This document shows positions 7,172 through 60,019 of a stretch of DNA of 64,000 nt, in pieces. The notes beneath the pieces were generated by a model. That model saw nothing but the letters and a program-made list of their open reading frames with translations. It was not told where the DNA came from and did no database searches. The stretch comes from Lachnospiraceae bacterium (GTDB lineage Bacteria > Bacillota > Clostridia > Lachnospirales > Lachnospiraceae), in assembly GCA_022647575.1 (NCBI GenBank), contig JALCKY010000001.1, positions 248,001-312,000 on the forward strand, read 5' to 3'. The first letter of the stretch is position 1. The number at the start of each line of letters is the position of its first letter. Made by a program: the position numbers and the translations under genes.

Positions 7172-7500
7172 ACTCCGGATTCAGCGATACTGACCGCTGT
7201 CCGTCAGCGGTCCATTTCCCCGGCACATGCCTGTGCGGAAAAGCATTGATGTTCGTGCCCTGAACTTCGGGAATCTTTGAACAGAATAAGAGCCTCTCCG
7301 AGGACTGTATGAGCTTGAAGACAAATGCCTTCGACAACACTCAGACGAGTTCCGCAGGAGAGGCTCATTTTTTATTCTGTGAAAAGATTCCCAGAAGTTC
7401 GTGGCACGGTTATCAGCTTTTCCGCACAGACATGCGTCCGGGAAAATGGACATGCTGAAACCCGTATTCCGTATCCACAGGATCCGGGTCATATCCGGAG
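7172..7500. repeat. Long imperfect inverted repeat in the tmcAL / UPF0210 gap
   Basis: The 439-base gene-free gap 7089-7527 between two convergent genes holds this element. Left arm 7172-7299 and right arm 7356-7500 are inverted copies, separated by about 56 bases of non-symmetric sequence. Matching blocks, in order from the outside in, are CTCCGGAT, GTCCATTT(C/T)CCCGG, GCATG(C/T)CTGTGCGGAAAAGC (with small shifts), GAACTTC(G/T)GGGAATCTTT, ACAGAATAA and GAGCCTCTCC. Small indels interrupt the match. No transposase or convincing ORF is inside. It could be a MITE-like relic, a very large hairpin acting as a two-way terminator, or an RNA gene. Confidence 0.75.
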
Positions 7501-39957: not shown

Positions 39958-41430
39958 TTACAGATTCTTCAGCAGACCTGTCGCTTCATTGAACTCATTG
40001 ATCAGTTCATCGACCTGCACGCCTTCTCTGCGGACAGCGCCCCAGGTATTGTCCTCATCATACCAGAGGGCATTGATTTCATCAAATGTCTTGCCCTGCT
40101 GCTCTACCCATGTGTAATACTTCAGGTTGTGGATTCTCTTGCGGTCCGTATAGCGGAGCTCCGCCATGTTGTCGGTCTTCTCCTCAAGGATGTGCCTGCT
40201 GAAGTCAACGGCAGCCATCTCATGCGTATACTCTCCGTCCGCTTCCTGAAGCTCTTTGATCCTGGACTGATACATCACCGCGGAATCCGTCATGACGGTC
40301 GCGACGACGTCGTGCTCGGTGAGCTCATTGTACTTCGCAAACTTGATGGCGCACAGCATATTGGCAATGCCGGAAATGCCGAAGTAGTCAAGATGGTCGA
40401 CCAGTTCCGGATCGACGCCCTGTGCCTTGAGATAGTCATGGCCGGCCGGCTCATTGAAGAGACGGAGGATTTTCTGGGAATCTTCATCATCGATGTCGAA
40501 GACGAAGTCTGTGTTCTTGACATTGTGGATCCACGGCACATGCTTGTCGCCGATGCCTTCGATGCGGTGGGCGCCGAAGCCGTTCTCCAGGATTGTCGGG
40601 CACTGAAGCGCTTCGCCGACTCCGAGTTTCGAATACGGATAGATTTCCTTCAGGCGGTCGCCTGCAGCCATCGTGCCGGCTGAGCCGGAGGTGAAGACAG
40701 CGCCCGCAAAGCGGTCTCCGTCCTGCTTCATTTCCTCGTAGGCTTCGGAGATGGCGTTGCCGGTGACATTGTAATGCCACATATAGTTGCCCATTTCTTC
40801 AAACTGGTTGAAGATCATGACATCGTCGCGCGTCGCGCGAAGCTCATGCGTCTTGTCGAAGATTTCCTTGACATTGGATTCCGTGCCCGGCGTAGCGATG
40901 ACTTCGCTGGCGATGGTCTTGAGCCAGTCAAAGCGCTCTTTGCTCATGCCGGCAGGCAGGATGGCGATGGAATAGCATCCGAGAAGTTTGGAGTTGAAGG
41001 CGCCGCCGCGGCAGTAGTTGCCGGTGGACGGCCAGACAGCTTTATTATAGGTAGAATCGAACTGTCCCGTTACCAGAGGCGGTACCAGGCAGCCGAAGGA
41101 AGCGCCGACTTTATGGCAGCCTGTCGGGAACCATTTCCCGATCATGCAGATGATTTTTGCTTTTACGCCGGTAAGTTCGGAAGGAAGGACGATATAGTTC
41201 GGGCCGTGGAAAAGGCCGCCGCTCTCCTTCTGTTCATTTTTCCAGGTAATGCGGAAGAGATTGAGGGGGTTCACGTCCCAGAGGCCTACTCCCTTGAGCT
41301 TCTCCTGGATTTTCTCCGGAACCTTCTCAGGATGCTGCATTTCCTCAAGTGTCGGGATGATGATGTTCTGCGCTTTTGCACGTTCGATGTTGTGTTCAAG
41401 ACCGGTTTTGTTGATTGTCAAATCAATCAT
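39958..41430 (-). CDS. Large PLP-dependent lyase/synthase of the cysteine-synthase fold, function unknown
   Basis: 490 residues from MIDLTINKTG, with GGAGG seven bases before it. It is a fold-type II PLP protein. The likely PLP lysine is Lys107 in FPTGCHKVGASFG, the substrate loop is WPSTGNYCRGGAF, and the phosphate-binding loop is SGSAGTMAAGDRL. It is longer than cysteine synthase (about 310) or threonine synthase, with an extra C-terminal region of about 150 residues. First gene of the long minus-strand operon that ends in hyuA, directly across from the regulator. A role on diaminopropionate, serine or a carbamoylated amino acid is possible (inference only). Confidence 0.7.
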   Translation of the reverse strand: MIDLTINKTGLEHNIERAKAQNIIIPTLEEMQHPEKVPEKIQEKLKGVGLWDVNPLNLFRITWKNEQKESGGLFHGPNYIVLPSELTGVKAKIICMIGKWFPTGCHKVGASFGCLVPPLVTGQFDSTYNKAVWPSTGNYCRGGAFNSKLLGCYSIAILPAGMSKERFDWLKTIASEVIATPGTESNVKEIFDKTHELRATRDDVMIFNQFEEMGNYMWHYNVTGNAISEAYEEMKQDGDRFAGAVFTSGSAGTMAAGDRLKEIYPYSKLGVGEALQCPTILENGFGAHRIEGIGDKHVPWIHNVKNTDFVFDIDDEDSQKILRLFNEPAGHDYLKAQGVDPELVDHLDYFGISGIANMLCAIKFAKYNELTEHDVVATVMTDSAVMYQSRIKELQEADGEYTHEMAAVDFSRHILEEKTDNMAELRYTDRKRIHNLKYYTWVEQQGKTFDEINALWYDEDNTWGAVRREGVQVDELINEFNEATGLLKNL

Positions 41431-42386: not shown

Positions 42387-43637
42387 ATGAATAAGACAAA
42401 CAATGAAGAACTCGTCTTCACGACGAACCAGGTTCCCAAGTCGGACGACCGCTGGCTGGAGATCATGTCCGAAGAAAATGTAAGGGATGCTCTTCATTTC
42501 CACAGAAGTTTTCCCCAGTATCAGGTCACTCCTCTTCACAAGCTTGTCCGCATGGCAGATTACCTCGGACTCGGATCCCTCTACGTAAAAGACGAGTCGT
42601 ACCGTTTCGGGCTGAATGCCTTCAAGGTTCTGGGCGGCTCTTTCGCCATCGCGAAATACATTTCGCAGCAGACCGGCATCCCGATCAACGATCTGCCGTA
42701 CAAGGTGCTCTCCTCTCCCGAACTCCGCAAGAAGATCGGGCAGACCACCTTCTACACGGCAACCGACGGCAATCACGGCCGCGGCGTCGCCTGGTCGGCC
42801 AACCGTCTCGGACAGAAGGCTGTCGTAAGAATGCCGAGAGGATCCTCCCAGGTCCGGAAGAGAAACATCGCCAAGGAACATGCCGTTGTTTCCATTGAAG
42901 ACCTGAACTACGATGAATGCGTACGCCTTGCCTACGAGCAGTCCAAGAATGACAAACACGGCGTCATCGTGCAGGACACCGCCTGGAAGGGCTACACCGA
43001 TATCCCGTCCTGGATCATGGAAGGCTACGGCTCCTTGAGCCTGGAAGCCGACCGCCAGATGCTGGCCGACGGATGCGAATATCCGACCCACGTCATCATT
43101 CAGGCTGGTGTCGGATCCCTGGCAGGATCGGTCGTCGGCTACTTTGCAAACCGCTTCAAGGGACACGAGCCGATCTTCTGCGTCGTAGAAGCCGGAGCAG
43201 CGGACTGCATTTACCGCTCCGCGATGCGCAAGGACGGCAGGACAGTTGCCGTCAAAGGCAAGCTCGATACGATCATGGCCGGTCTTGCCTGCGGCGAACC
43301 GAACACGATCTCCTGGGATATCCTGAGGAACCATGCTGCCGGATTTGCCGGCTGCCCCGACTGGATGAGTGCCATGGGAACCAGAATGTACGGCGTCCCG
43401 CTGGAAGGCGATCCGACGATCATCTCCGGCGAGTCCGGTTCCGTCACGATGGGCTTCCTGGCCTGCGTCATGATGTACAAGCGCTATGAGCCGATCAGGA
43501 AAGCCCTGAAGCTCGGACCGAAATCGAGGGTGCTCCTCATTTCCACGGAAGGCAACACGGATCCCACCAGGTTCCGCGAAGTTGTATGGAACGGCCTTTA
43601 CGGCATCCGCCACAGAGGTCAGGAAGATATCAAATAA
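42387..43637 (+). CDS. ygeX: 2,3-Diaminopropionate ammonia-lyase
   Basis: PLP enzyme that splits 2,3-diaminopropionate to pyruvate and two ammonia. 416 residues. The PLP lysine is Lys80 in RFGLNAFKVLGG; ATDGNHGRGVAW and QAGVGSLAGSVVGYF are the cofactor-phosphate loops, as in E. coli YgeX. It is the carbon-releasing step of anaerobic purine breakdown. It starts 66 bases after the regulator and shares its direction. The ribosome site is weak (AGCAGGAA close to the ATG), so translation may depend on read-through coupling. Confidence 0.93.
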   Translation: MNKTNNEELVFTTNQVPKSDDRWLEIMSEENVRDALHFHRSFPQYQVTPLHKLVRMADYLGLGSLYVKDESYRFGLNAFKVLGGSFAIAKYISQQTGIPINDLPYKVLSSPELRKKIGQTTFYTATDGNHGRGVAWSANRLGQKAVVRMPRGSSQVRKRNIAKEHAVVSIEDLNYDECVRLAYEQSKNDKHGVIVQDTAWKGYTDIPSWIMEGYGSLSLEADRQMLADGCEYPTHVIIQAGVGSLAGSVVGYFANRFKGHEPIFCVVEAGAADCIYRSAMRKDGRTVAVKGKLDTIMAGLACGEPNTISWDILRNHAAGFAGCPDWMSAMGTRMYGVPLEGDPTIISGESGSVTMGFLACVMMYKRYEPIRKALKLGPKSRVLLISTEGNTDPTRFREVVWNGLYGIRHRGQEDIK

Positions 43638-43683: not shown

Positions 43684-45039
43684 ATGGATCTGGATTACGG
43701 AAAAATCAAGGAAGCAGCAAAAGGTTATGAGAAGGATATGACGGCTTTTCTGAGGGCCATCATCAAAAACCCCGGCGAGAGCTGCGATGAAAAAGCACAC
43801 ATCACGACAATTGCAGAAGAAATGAAGAAAGTCGGATTCGACGAAGTACAGATCGATCCGGAAGGCAACGTCATCGGATATATGGGAACGGGCAGCCGCA
43901 TCCTTGCTTTCGATGCCCATATCGACACCGTCGGCATCGGCTACCGCGACAACTGGAAATTCGATCCGTACGAAGGATATGAAAATGATACGGAAATCGG
44001 CGGACGCGGCGGCTCCGACCAGCTCGGCGGAATCGTCTCCTCCGTATACGGCGCCAAGATCATGAAGGACATGAACCTGATCCCGGAAGGATGCCGGATC
44101 ATGGTCACCGGCACGGTCCAGGAAGAGGACTGCGACGGACTCTGCTGGCAGTACATCCATCGTGAAGACGGTGTGACGCCGGAATTCGTCGTCTCCACCG
44201 AGCCGACTGACGGCGGCATTTACCGCGGACACAGAGGCCGCATGGAAATCCGCGTCGACATGCACGGGGTCTCCTGCCACGGCTCAGCTCCGGAGCGCGG
44301 CGACAATGCCATCTTCAAGATGGCCGACGTTCTTCAGGACATCCGTTCCCTCAATGAGAACGACGATGCGGACGGAACCGAAATCAAGGGTCTCGTCAAG
44401 ATGCTGAATCCCAAGTACAATCCGGAAAGCTATGAAGATGCACAGTTCCTCGGAAGAGGCACCGTTACGGTTTCCCAGATCTACTTTACTTCTCCGAGCC
44501 GCTGCGCCGTTGCGGACAGCTGCACCGTTTCCCTTGACCGCCGCATGACGGCCGGCGAGACATGGCAGTCCTGCCTGCAGGAAATCCGCGATCTTCCGGC
44601 CTGCCAAAAGTACGCCAAGGACATCAAGGTCTCCATGTACAACTACGACCGTCCGGCTTACACGGGTCTGAAATATGAAACGGAATGCTACTTCCCGACA
44701 TGGATCAATAAGGAAGAAGCTCCGCATGTCAAAGCAGTTGCAGATGCCTACCATGCCCTTTACGGCGACAAGCGCATCGGCGATGCGGGTGCCATGGACA
44801 AGCGCGACCGTCCGCTGATCGACAAGTGGACCTTCTCGACGAACGGCGTCGCCATCCAGGGACGTTTCGGAATCCCGTGCGTCGGCTTCGGACCGGGCGC
44901 TGAGTCACAGGCCCATGCCCCGAACGAAATCACCTGGAAGCAGGATCTGGTTACCTGCGCCGCACTCTACGCTTCCCTTCCGACCGTCTATGTCAATAAC
45001 AATCCGGAAGCCGTCAAATTTGAAGTAAAGGACGCCTGA
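43684..45039 (+). CDS. ygeY: YgeY-type M20 zinc hydrolase (selenium-metabolism linked)
   Basis: 451 residues, M20 peptidase/deacylase fold. Metal ligands: FDAHIDTVG (His79, Asp81), [18 protein letters not shown] and a late His in the C-terminal region (ESQAHAPNE). The lid domain [24 protein letters not shown] is typical of the family. It probably hydrolyses a carbamoyl- or acyl-amino acid intermediate of the purine pathway, releasing diaminopropionate for YgeX (inference from known clusters). A strong ribosome site AAGGAGGAAAC precedes the ATG. Confidence 0.92.
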
Positions 45040-57286: not shown

Positions 57287-57328
57287 ACAAAAAAAACGTT
57301 CTGCCTTTTTCGGCGGAACGTTTTTTTT
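57287..57328. terminator. Bidirectional terminator shared by pyrBI and rnpB
   Basis: An 11-bp stem with one G-T pair (57295-57305 with 57312-57322) and a 6-base loop. There are eight A on the left and eight T on the right, so each strand has a good U-run. It ends pyrI on the plus strand and rnpB on the minus strand. Confidence 0.85.
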
Positions 57329-57329
57329 A

Positions 57330-57663
57330 CGGGCTGAACGATAAGCCGGGTTATGTCGTGTACGGCCATCTGTCTAGACCGTCCGTCGCCGGACGGTTCA
57401 AGCGGCCAACCTGAAGCACGGCGGGCAGCCGTATCGCTTCTTTTCGGCCTTGCTTCGAATGGGGCGTGCATGTGCCCTCTCCGTTACCGCAGAGGCGGTA
57501 GTCTCTTGCACTGCCTTTCCACCCTTACCGGTTTCCCGGCGGTTTATTTCTGTTGCGCTATCCTCGGGGTCGCCCCCACCGGACGTTATCCGGCATCCTG
57601 CCCTGTGAAGCCCGGACTTTCCTCGTCTGAATCTCTCCAGCCGCGGCCGTATGTCCAGCCCGC
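57330..57663 (-). ncRNA. rnpB: RNase P RNA, bacterial type A
   Basis: Catalytic RNA that matures tRNA 5' ends. On the minus strand it has the conserved 5' P4 segment GAGGAAAGTCCGGGC, the central GGTGGGGGCGACCCCGAGG region, GGGTGGAAAGGCAGTGCAAGAG, and the 3' segment ACCCGGCTTATCG. P1 is formed by GGGCTG near the start and CAGCCC at the end. The length of about 334 bases suits type A. The ends are set from the promoter and the terminator, accurate to a few bases. Confidence 0.95.
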
Positions 57664-57697: not shown

Positions 57698-57783
57698 CCG
57701 TTCGTCCTTAGCGTTCAGCCGCCTCCGCCTGTATACGGCCGGATGTCTTTTTCCTGCGGCCTTTGCCCTGCAGGGTGCACACA

Positions 57784-57855
57784 GACAATAGCGCGGCTTC
57801 GTCGGCATTTCCGCACGATGCGATGGGCTTCGCAGAACTGTCTGAAGCGGGCTCT
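57784..57855 (+). repeat. Unit A of the palindromic array (outer left)
   Basis: 72 bases from GACA to GCGGGCTCT. It has the core ATTTCCGCAC followed by the A-specific GATGCGATGGGCT. Its sequence partner is A' (inner right), but its core and flanks match the outer-right unit B'. Confidence 0.8.
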
Positions 57856-57898
57856 CTCTGCTGCATAGAGCAGTCAGCCGGAGAGGCAGGAACGCTCT

Positions 57899-57966
57899 GA
57901 CACGCTTGCTTCTGCCGTTTCTGCACTCGCCGATGGATGGGCTGCTCCGAAAACTCAGCGGGCTCT
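57899..57966 (+). repeat. Unit B of the palindromic array (inner left)
   Basis: 68 bases from GACA to GCGGGCTCT, with core GTTTCTGCAC and B-specific CTGCTCCGAAAACTCA. Its sequence partner is B' (outer right), while its core matches the inner-right unit A'. Confidence 0.8.
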
Positions 57967-57978
57967 TTCATTGATAAC

Positions 57979-58015
57979 AAACATCCGTGAGAGGAAAATC
58001 CTCTCACGGATGTTT
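57979..58015. terminator. Central perfect hairpin of the array, bidirectional terminator-like
   Basis: A perfect 17-bp stem (57979-57995 with 57999-58015) with an AAA loop, AAACATCCGTGAGAGGA in the left arm. There is a T-rich step on the right (TTTATTA) and an A-rich one on the left. It could end the uridine kinase-like transcript arriving on the minus strand, and any plus-strand RNA from the left arm. Confidence 0.7.
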
Positions 58016-58031
58016 ATTACAAGTCATGGAA

Positions 58032-58104
58032 AGAGCCCGCCTCAGACAGTTCTGCGCAGCCCATCGCATCGTGCAGAAACGGCGACGAAGCCGGCGCTAT
58101 CGTC
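58032..58104 (-). repeat. Unit A' of the palindromic array (inner right)
   Basis: 73 bases on the minus strand from GACG to GCGGGCTCT. It shares A-specific sequence (ATAGCG, GGCTTCGTCG, GATGCGATGGGCT, CGCAGAACTGTCTGA) with A but carries the inner-type core GTTTCTGCAC. Confidence 0.8.
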
Positions 58105-58144
58105 AGAGCGGTCCTGTCTCTCCGTCTGGCTGCTGTAGATAAAG

Positions 58145-58212
58145 AGAGCCCGCTGAGTTTTCGGAGCAGCCCATCAACAGGCGAGTGCGGAAATGGCAGA
58201 AGCAAGCGTGTC
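58145..58212 (-). repeat. Unit B' of the palindromic array (outer right)
   Basis: 68 bases on the minus strand from GACA to GCGGGCTCT. It shares B-specific sequence (CGCTTGCTTCTGCC, CTGCTCCGAAAACTCA) with B but carries the outer-type core ATTTCCGCAC. Confidence 0.8.
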
Positions 58213-58264
58213 TGTGTGCACTCTGCAGGGCCAGGGCCGCATAAAATAAACTAACCGCCGGCCG

Positions 58265-59938
58265 CTACAGCCGGAAGCAGCCTCCCCCTATGAATTCGCG
58301 GAGGATGGAGTTGTGCGGCACGTCATCCGCGGGAACTCCGATGAAATAGTCCAGGAATTTCAGAAGGCGCTTGGCCTCGTAGAACTGCGGGTCATCCTCT
58401 TCCACCTGGAAAAGCAGCGGCTGCGCATACAGCTTCAGGACCGACAGCTCGTAAAGCAGCGCTGAGTTGAAAATGACATCCGACTTTTCCTGGAACGGGA
58501 AAATATGCTCGATCTCTCCCTGGCGTACACTGTTCCACATGGAAAGCGTCTCGCTGGCCGAATAGCCCCGCGTGCGGTAGTCGCGCACGATCCGCCGGAT
58601 GAGACGGCCGTCCGTCGACGGGATGCGGTTGTGCTCATCGATGTTGAGCTGCGTCAGCGCACTGATGTAGATCCGGAATTCGCTTTCCTTCGGAAGCGAA
58701 TAGCTGAGCTTATCGTTCAGGCAGTGGATGCCTTCAATCACCAGCAGGTCATTCTCTTCCAGCTTGATGGTATCGCCCTTGTAGGTCCGCCTGCCTTCCA
58801 CGAAATCATAGACCGGCATTTCGACCTTTTCCCCGCTGAGAAGCTTTGTCATATCCTCGTTGAAGCCCTTGACGTCAATGGCCGCCAGGCTTTCAAAATC
58901 TTTCCTGCCGTCTTCCCTGACCGGAGTATCCGTCCGGTCCTTGAAATAATTGTCCACGCCGACATAATGGGGTTTCAGTCCGCGTGCAAAAAGCTGGATC
59001 ATCAGGCGCTGCGAAAAAGTCGTCTTTCCTGAAGAGGACGGCCCCGCGATCATGACGAACTTGACCTGCTTCTTATTCAGGATCTGATCCGCAATCAAGG
59101 AAATCCTCGTCTCCATCAGGGCTTCCGCAATCAGGATCGTCTGACGGGTTTTCCCCGCGATGACGTTGGAATTGAGTTCCCCGATCGTATCGATTCCCAT
59201 CTTCTGTGCCCAGCTCTCGCCGAGGATCTGGACGCTGAAGAGCTTGTCCTCTTCGGCAAACGGAGGGACTTCCTCCGGCCGGCCGGCTTCCGGCATCTGC
59301 AGGACGATGCCGCCCTGGTACGGATAGAGCTTGAAGTATTTCAGATAGCCGGTATGGTTCGTCATGAACCCGTAATAATAATCCTCAAATTCCCCGAGCT
59401 TGTAGAGATTCACCCGCGAGGCGAGCCTTGTCCGGAAAAGCTGCTCCTTGTCCGGCATGTGATGACGCTTAAACAGTTCGATTGCTTCATTCGTGCTGAC
59501 CGTCCGCTTGATGATCGGTATTTTCTTTTCGACGATCTCGTGCATGTGGTCTTCGACTTTTTTGATGAAAGTACCGTCGATTTCCACGTCGCCCTCAATC
59601 GTATAGAAAAAGCCCGAGCTGACGGAGAAATGAAGCACGACCCGTCTGATTTTATCGTAGCCGCCGATATGATAGACTGCACTCAGGAACAGCATCGAGC
59701 AGCTGCGCTTGTAGGTCTTGTGTCCGATTTCATCCGCCGTCGTCACGAACCTGACGTCCGCATCTTCCCTGGCCGCATGATGCAGTTCATGAAGTTTTCC
59801 GTTGATCATCGCCAGGATAATGTCATGCGGCTCATCCTTCTGGAAATCACGCGCAATCACGGAAAGGGGCGTATCCTTCGGATACGTATATTCTTTTCCC
59901 CCGATGGTCAGCGTTACTGTTTTCTTCGGTTCATCCAT
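58265..59938 (-). CDS. TGS-domain nucleoside (uridine) kinase-like protein
   Basis: 557 residues from MDEPKKTVTLTIGG, chosen because AAAGGAAG stands about eight bases before it; two ATGs lie a few codons upstream. Residues 1-65 form a TGS-like domain and 70-250 a threonyl-tRNA-synthetase-like second domain. From about 290 a P-loop kinase domain has GPSSSGKTTFSQRL, the DNYFKDRTDTP region and VIEGIHCLND. The kinase domain is uridine kinase/phosphoribulokinase-like; the substrate of this fused family is unproven. Its transcript would run into the right arm of the palindromic array. Confidence 0.85.
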   Translation of the reverse strand: MDEPKKTVTLTIGGKEYTYPKDTPLSVIARDFQKDEPHDIILAMINGKLHELHHAAREDADVRFVTTADEIGHKTYKRSCSMLFLSAVYHIGGYDKIRRVVLHFSVSSGFFYTIEGDVEIDGTFIKKVEDHMHEIVEKKIPIIKRTVSTNEAIELFKRHHMPDKEQLFRTRLASRVNLYKLGEFEDYYYGFMTNHTGYLKYFKLYPYQGGIVLQMPEAGRPEEVPPFAEEDKLFSVQILGESWAQKMGIDTIGELNSNVIAGKTRQTILIAEALMETRISLIADQILNKKQVKFVMIAGPSSSGKTTFSQRLMIQLFARGLKPHYVGVDNYFKDRTDTPVREDGRKDFESLAAIDVKGFNEDMTKLLSGEKVEMPVYDFVEGRRTYKGDTIKLEENDLLVIEGIHCLNDKLSYSLPKESEFRIYISALTQLNIDEHNRIPSTDGRLIRRIVRDYRTRGYSASETLSMWNSVRQGEIEHIFPFQEKSDVIFNSALLYELSVLKLYAQPLLFQVEEDDPQFYEAKRLLKFLDYFIGVPADDVPHNSILREFIGGGCFRL

Positions 59939-60019
59939 TTTCATTGCTTCCTTTTCCATCCTGTCCCAAACGTCCTGAGAAGATGCTTTCCGGCAGATGC
60001 CTTAAGCAGAGTCTCTCCG

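Follow-up and report, generated by a model that had tools for sequence, protein, structure and literature searches.

The gap between rnpB and a nucleoside-kinase gene in the window, i.e. the whole 64,000-nucleotide stretch of Lachnospiraceae DNA that was analysed, contains a large imperfect palindrome in which a single mismatched helix, with A and b as its unlike strands, is present twice and in opposite orientation. A and B are not two shuffled palindrome units. With moderate confidence, we interpret the palindrome and its copies elsewhere in the source genome (family 1) as a non-autonomous interspersed DNA element that consists of two imperfect-hairpin copies, an outer A-b and an inner B-a, and that would be recognised in its folded form. 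This explanation rests on the dispersal over eight loci, the conservation of the facing loops, the complementary drift of the stems and the empty site in relatives.

Layout of the palindrome and its surroundings

The family-1 module occupies positions 57784-58212 (429 bp, no strand assigned) and is read as two nested hairpin copies in opposite orientation. Its left arm runs A-X-B, whereas the right arm runs a-x-b rather than b-x-a, lower case denoting the reverse complement. The original prediction had described exchanged units in the order A-B-hairpin-A'-B', and this is confirmed: the order at that place is A-X-B-hairpin-a-x-b. The outer unit A (57784-57858, plus strand) comprises the A1 loop motif, a core stem and the A3 motif AGAACTGTCTGAAGC; a core-like motif of A3, ACTGTCTGAAGC (57837-57848, plus strand), lies opposite GCTGAGTT at 58152-58159. 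The left arm of the covarying spacer stem X (57859-57898) is followed by the inner unit B (57899-57966, plus strand), with the B1 motif GACACGCTTGCTTCTG and the B3 motif CTCCGAAAACTCAGC, and by the apical hairpin that forms the palindrome tip (57975-58019; arms 57975-57995 and 57999-58019, 21 bp). The right half holds the inner unit a (58029-58104, minus strand), the right arm of X (58105-58142) and the outer unit b (58143-58212, minus strand). Inverted repeat A (57794-57858 versus 58029-58093) is 91% complementary over 65 nt, and inverted repeat B (57899-57966 versus 58145-58212) is 93% complementary over 68 nt; further inverted repeats join the spacers (57866-57901 versus 58102-58137) and the outer arms (57736-57787 versus 58209-58260). 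Short parts follow position, as had been noticed from the sequence: the core is ATTTCCGCAC in both outer units and GTTTCTGCAC in both inner units.

In a scan for long palindromes the structure extends over 523 aligned columns. The same scan returned 22 regions in 376 kb of another contig of the source genome (longest 105 columns), 26 regions in 400 kb of a genome of the same genus (longest 75 columns) and a single region above threshold in 199 kb of shuffled DNA. The window palindrome is far beyond chance expectation.

Both neighbours lie on the minus strand: rnpB, the RNase P RNA of class A (RF00010, 286.4 bits), at 57326-57662, and the nucleoside-kinase gene, named by eye, at 58265-59959. 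Promoter-like matches number two in the region, compared with 0.4 in shuffles. rnpB has its own promoter-like site outside the element (57697-57669), and one match is located inside it (57971-57999, plus strand). A weak terminator site on the minus strand (58274-58258) coincides with the kinase stop codon, within the right outer arm. When scanned for a stem followed by a T-run, the stretch 57979-58015 scored no site.

Copies, conserved fold and outer arms

We found family 1 at eight dispersed loci of the source genome (3.03 Mb in 11 contigs, completeness 94.3%), with no further match at E 1e-6 or better. Besides the window copy, C2:218450-218880, C2:248962-249408 and C8:64222-64681 are full-length and 83-87% identical to it; C1:821893-822214 is truncated, C6:86115-86358 is reduced, and C2:331447-331581 and C6:70137-70180 are remnants. 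A plain nested palindrome among the homologues would have spoken against the exchange of units, but the swap is retained in all four full-length copies. With up to one mismatch allowed, the B1 motif was found at 11 places; the A1 motif, with up to two allowed, was found at 10, and every one of these places lies within a family-1 locus. One further mismatch adds six places for B1, one of them inside these loci, and two for A1, none inside; reversed-pattern controls at those looser settings gave three and two places, respectively. Separate scans with B1-core and A1 patterns yielded 1, 1 and 6 loci, and a BLAST comparison of these eight with all family-1 copies, together with inspection of the stretches of three, gave short matches only, around the searched stretch.

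Outside the source genome, a screen of 60 genomes at E 0.001, including 36 from the same genus, gave no match to family 1. Its inner part was likewise without a match at E 0.01 in the 41 remaining members of the genus, most of which had been in the first screen. Phage and plasmid records did not match family 1 either. We tried the rnpB loci of 29 relatives; the kinase gene is also present in 17, and the gap was readable in 16, with one clashing orientation. In 16 of 16 readable cases the kinase-rnpB gap measures 13-293 bp, including up to 38 bp of rnpB, as compared with 605 bp here. Because of this absence from other genomes and the short gaps in relatives, the element was probably gained in the lineage of the source genome. 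In one genome of the same genus (L060) we observed other short hairpins (CCGATGCC...GGCATCGG), two of which lie in the kinase-rnpB gap, the same intergenic place. According to the ORFs, judged by eye, the other family-1 copies adjoin different genes, and no transposase was recognised beside any of them. Among the options offered in the original prediction, a mobile-element relic comes nearest to these results: the scattered copies agree with it, the lack of a recognised transposase does not.

To compare the position-matched and identity-matched folds, we aligned the four full-length copies, the same sequences from which the nested fold had been predicted. In the nested, position-matched fold 95.9% of the cells are paired and 31 of 182 pairs show changes on both sides, a count reached in none of 500 shuffles; sliding the partners by one to three columns left 0-6. 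The identity-matched fold (A-a plus B-b), a topology in which the two pairings cross each other, has 92.1% and 90.4% of its cells paired, yet both-side changes in 0 of 130 pairs, and this part of the original prediction is not supported. Most both-side changes fall in parts common to both folds, namely spacer (11/34), tip (5/30) and flank (11/14), compared with 4/47 in the outer A-b and 0/50 in the inner B-a; helix 9, which in the nested fold extends a little beyond X, has 11 in 36 pairs. Since spacer, tip and flank pairs occur in either fold, the direct contrast amounts to four pairs versus none. The compensatory stem changes of family 1, like those of the related hairpins described below, do not separate RNA from folded DNA.

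The facing unpaired sequences (A1 versus b1, A3 versus b3) vary very little, in contrast to X and the flanks, which diverge widely among the copies. Because these loops hardly change while stems and outer arms drift yet stay complementary, we take A and b to be the two strands of one helix. The apparent swap is accounted for by a single mismatched helix that occurs as the outer A-b and, reversed, as the inner B-a. The reduced copy C6:86, inspected by eye, has B1-A2-A3 in its left arm and the complement of A1-A2-B3 in its right arm. Despite this change of arm, A1 is still opposite B1 and A3 opposite B3, and therefore the facing of unlike strands is what is kept. Inversion via the stem common to both arms would produce such an arrangement.

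This apparent inversion product, together with arms long enough for recombination, could point to a switchable DNA structure or an invertible segment regulating rnpB or the kinase gene. However, the genes beside the other copies differ, rnpB has a promoter-like site of its own, and the ORFs of the locus, inspected by eye, include no recognisable recombinase; we consider this reading very unlikely. The approximate two-fold symmetry and the central 21-bp hairpin had also suggested two convergent paralogous RNAs with a common bidirectional terminator. Here, the hairpin scores no terminator, the identity pairing lacks covariation and C6:86 keeps its heterologous facing, which leaves this proposal scarcely credible.

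The DNA beyond the module is also palindromic, over 51-115 bp in all five family-1 copies with both ends, and the arm extension scores are 55-103, as against peak values of 10-22 when each copy was shuffled 100 times. With stricter scoring the copy-specific window arms measure 66 bp (57718-57783) and, as its inverted partner, 69 bp (58213-58281; score 54); with softer scoring they reach 89 and 101 bp (score 66, versus a maximum of 16 in 100 shuffles). Gene ends are included only partly, as the right arm under stricter scoring covers the final 17 bp of the kinase gene. At E 0.01 each arm matches its own partner and never an arm of another copy. Pooled over five copies, arm identity is 90% in the first 20 columns and mostly 65-80% further out. 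At the window copy the flanks, where a target-site duplication would lie, are themselves palindromic. A family-2 copy (see below), C1:244, is without outer arms, and C1:611 was excluded from the arm count. The arms are either parts of the element that drift under pairing, or they were made and corrected in place. As a side observation, the stop codon of an adjoining ORF apparently stems from truncated elements in L032 at about 2497 (CTGAA, A3 motif) and in L092, C1:244097 (CCCTGA, family 2).

Related hairpins and the question of DNA or RNA

The sole other giant from the palindrome scans of the window lies at 7210-7451 (plus strand) in an intergenic gap, has its canonical core at 7299-7357 and gave an RNA folding z of -14.9. 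It belongs to family 2, which is present in the source genome at six loci by BLAST and eight by model R1, shows both-side changes in 20 of 49 pairs and has the centre CGAGGACTGT...GAGTTCCGCAG. The core of the corresponding superfamily, CGAGGACTGTYTGAGC...GCGAGTTCCGCAG, also occurs in other genera. Of 397 genomes belonging to the bacterial family, probably Lachnospiraceae, six carry a centre pattern (seven sites each in the source genome and G409, three each in G082 and G399, one each in G370 and G159), and none matched the reversed pattern; all 22 sites fold into long hairpins. For a canonical set we retained 18 of 25 stretches; those excluded were four whose apical loops are long, a near-duplicate and the two virus-collection stretches. 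In these 18 sequences 25 of 33 consensus pairs show at least one both-side change. Model R2, built from them, matched 6 of 391 genomes of the class. The source genome, G082 and G159 had contributed model sequences; the three other genomes match weakly (E 8e-5 to 6e-4) and also have long hairpins around TGTYTGAGC...GCGAGTT-like centres. With respect to adjacent long ORFs, superfamily copies point either way.

Genome G082 has three units, each exactly 182 bp in length and running from AAGACGCC to GGCGTC, within 4.3 kb of contig C28 (L176) at 39989-40170, 42971-43152 and 44081-44262, one of them inverted. Their ends are GACGCCCTGCAAC/GTTGCAGGGCGTC and their flanks are unrelated; the adjoining 8 bp, left and right, show no target duplication. 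Two units differ from one another at 2 positions and the third differs from these at 14. The arms travel with the unit, and so for this relative the reading of the arms as element parts is favoured. The same observation bears on the idea that the palindromes are locus-bound products of replication, in which a short hairpin would grow by repeated template switching, with the flank copied across, and loop conservation would reflect recent common origin instead of use. This would account for arms that pair with their own partner only in all five family-1 copies and decay outward. On the other hand, the loop motifs are nearly letter-perfect while the stems of the same copies are not, correction should have removed the A-b mismatches, and the G082 arms travel together with their unit. 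A replication origin of this kind thus appears improbable.

Another genome, G399, carries two different superfamily hairpins (L179, C1:41153 and 41483), 330 bp apart and in opposite orientation, a pair that is the un-nested counterpart of the window arrangement. Two IMG/VR contigs contain the same centre with different outer loops (L202:1237-1358 and L201:8995-9120). The loops of L202 read CCGAG(C/T)AGCGCA and, on the other arm, CGAGCA(G/A)CGCAGGG, with L201 being similar, and a CTTTCTTTGG-type repeat follows downstream in L202. The virus collection gave no match to the exact compact-core pattern and two to a looser one. Neither the G082 unit nor the L202 hairpin matched phage or plasmid records; short-core matches in three plasmids and one phage cover at most 60% of the 40-nt query.

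Does family 1 belong to the superfamily? In its outer hairpin ACTGTCTGAAGC faces GCTGAGTT, compared with ACTGTYTGAGC opposite GCGAGTT in the superfamily, the difference being one extra A-T pair. This core pair is present in the outer hairpin of all four full copies, and in the inner hairpin of one of the four within one edit (left motif, window copy). Counting both strands, 376 kb held 5 occurrences and 400 kb held 9, so that 0.006-0.010 core pairs within 420 nt are expected per element, for a motif chosen after the fact and with opposite placement not yet required. We consider the kinship to be probable, judging from these motifs, but not proven, because the covariance model misses family 1 (best R2 match 15.4 bits, E 0.5). 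For A3 and family 2, a different alignment register was abandoned, as the alignment to CGAGGACTGTCTGAGC is better.

Departures from pairing were then counted by strand. In family 1, 66 G-U-type departures on the plus strand stand against 73 on the minus strand (six copies, distal sequence included), and in family 2 there are 35 versus 38 G-T and A-C departures, a balance as expected at the DNA level. The RNAalifold fold of family 1 contains 39 G-T and 13 A-C cells, a count that is biased because the program admits G-U. The canonical set, with CGAGGAC read first, gives 72 versus 31 in 22 hairpins. Up to 50 nt from the core, 23 hairpins scored by distinct context show an excess of G-U over A-C of 37 to 6 (p 1.6e-6, fixed loop positions included), and clean stems near the core 12 to 3 (p 0.035, uncorrected). 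Further out there is no bias, with 31 versus 25 at 50-100 nt and 41 versus 44 at 100-160 nt. A search of Rfam 15 (4227 families) gave no match at the gathering score; a known RNA was rejected, since microRNA-type hairpin matches are far below that score (best 37.7 bits versus 74) and the rest are at chance level.

The bias near the core fits RNA. One may think of a family of structured non-coding RNAs, transcribed from the strand CGAGGAC...GTTCCGCAG (in family 1 from A3 to b3), whose loops would bind a protein or regulate, with occasional duplication. The strong covariation of the canonical set, the conserved internal loops, the G-U excess, which favours RNA on one strand, and the promoter-like match within the element all agree with this. 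Nevertheless, a strand preference is absent from family 1, from family 2 and beyond 50 nt from the canonical core, Rfam is silent at the gathering score, the superfamily copies show both orientations relative to long ORFs, and the nested opposite-orientation layout makes both strands nearly equivalent. Altogether, an RNA family seems doubtful, and a DNA element fits the dispersal, sharp ends, empty sites, strand symmetry and nested state better.

A proposed folded DNA element and its comparison with known systems

If family 1 is a DNA element, a strand made single by lagging-strand synthesis, cruciform extrusion or transfer might fold into the hairpin, and a trans-acting enzyme could then recognise the internal loops and copy or move the element. 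Stems and outer arms would stay complementary through template switching from arm to arm or because pairing is selected, and recombination between the arms may flip inner parts while the A-b facing is retained. As for the nested state, one copy could have inserted at the apex of a second, or a duplicate lying inside could have been inverted. In a broader and more tentative reading, the superfamily as a whole may represent a class-wide kind of bacterial element, not described before, with conserved mismatched loops around a common core and free stems, which an enzyme would spread in the form of a folded single strand, either DNA or RNA; in the source genome it would be doubled and nested, with both strands folding equivalently.

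Were this so, a new type of bacterial interspersed repeat would carry its information in loops, not in stems or termini. Four full copies and many relatives would then be a natural data set for the recognition of folded DNA in cells, and for whether arm complementarity is due to copying or to selection. The case also cautions against taking palindromes that look swapped for shuffled units, since they can consist of a single mismatched helix in nested copies. The original prediction knew of no described family, which agrees with the searches of Rfam and of phage and plasmid records. The longer letters of the superfamily core occur in none of the openly licensed papers searched, such letters being rarely printed. 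Among the matches listed for shorter core strings there was no relevant title, and among those listed for general terms no description was recognised.

REP, BIME and REPIN repeats with their RAYT transposases are intergenic, dispersed, imperfect and non-coding palindromes, often in opposite-orientation pairs, and the present element shares these traits. REP-type repeats, however, are 20-40 bp long and mostly have GTAG or CGTC ends, as described in PMC3733652, whereas the element spans 180-430 bp and has several conserved internal loops and covarying stems. Its module is 429 bp long, and the CGTC letters lie inside A1 and not at an unpaired short-palindrome end (tags judged by eye). The words Firmicutes, clostridi- and lachnospir- are absent from the main text of PMC3733652, and PMC4666352 concerns intrastrand triplex repeats, unlike the present element. 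The sole Y1 transposase match in the source genome, 254 aa and RAYT-like in our reading, is encoded at L115, 1105-1869 (minus strand), between inverted 28-bp repeats GGAACCACGGGGACGGGGGTGGTGGTTC at 1000-1055 and 2009-2037. This RAYT was rejected as the mover, its flanking repeat being different from family 1; the best match of its 3.3-kb surroundings to family-1 and family-2 copies is 27 nt long (E 0.005) and lies in DNA flanking a family-2 copy.

MITEs and foldback repeats such as ERIC, YPAL and BOX are short non-coding inverted repeats that form long hairpins and are presumably moved in trans. Family 1 likewise combines dispersed non-coding copies and a long hairpin with empty sites in relatives. 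It differs in that its copies have loops in common rather than stems or termini, and in being a nested opposite-orientation double copy. No target duplication was seen, the flanks of the window copy being palindromic themselves, and no autonomous parent was found among the matches in the source genome, phages and plasmids, Y1 being the transposase family searched for. Structured RNAs of the Rfam type resemble it in covariation and conserved internal loops, but not in the strand balance of family 1 or in the missing gathering-score match. Integron attC sites are recognised as folded single strands, with a largely free stem sequence and conserved structure and unpaired bases. The element is much longer than an attC site and has several loops, and no cassette array or integrase was recognised nearby; like attC, it keeps its loops conserved and leaves its stems free.
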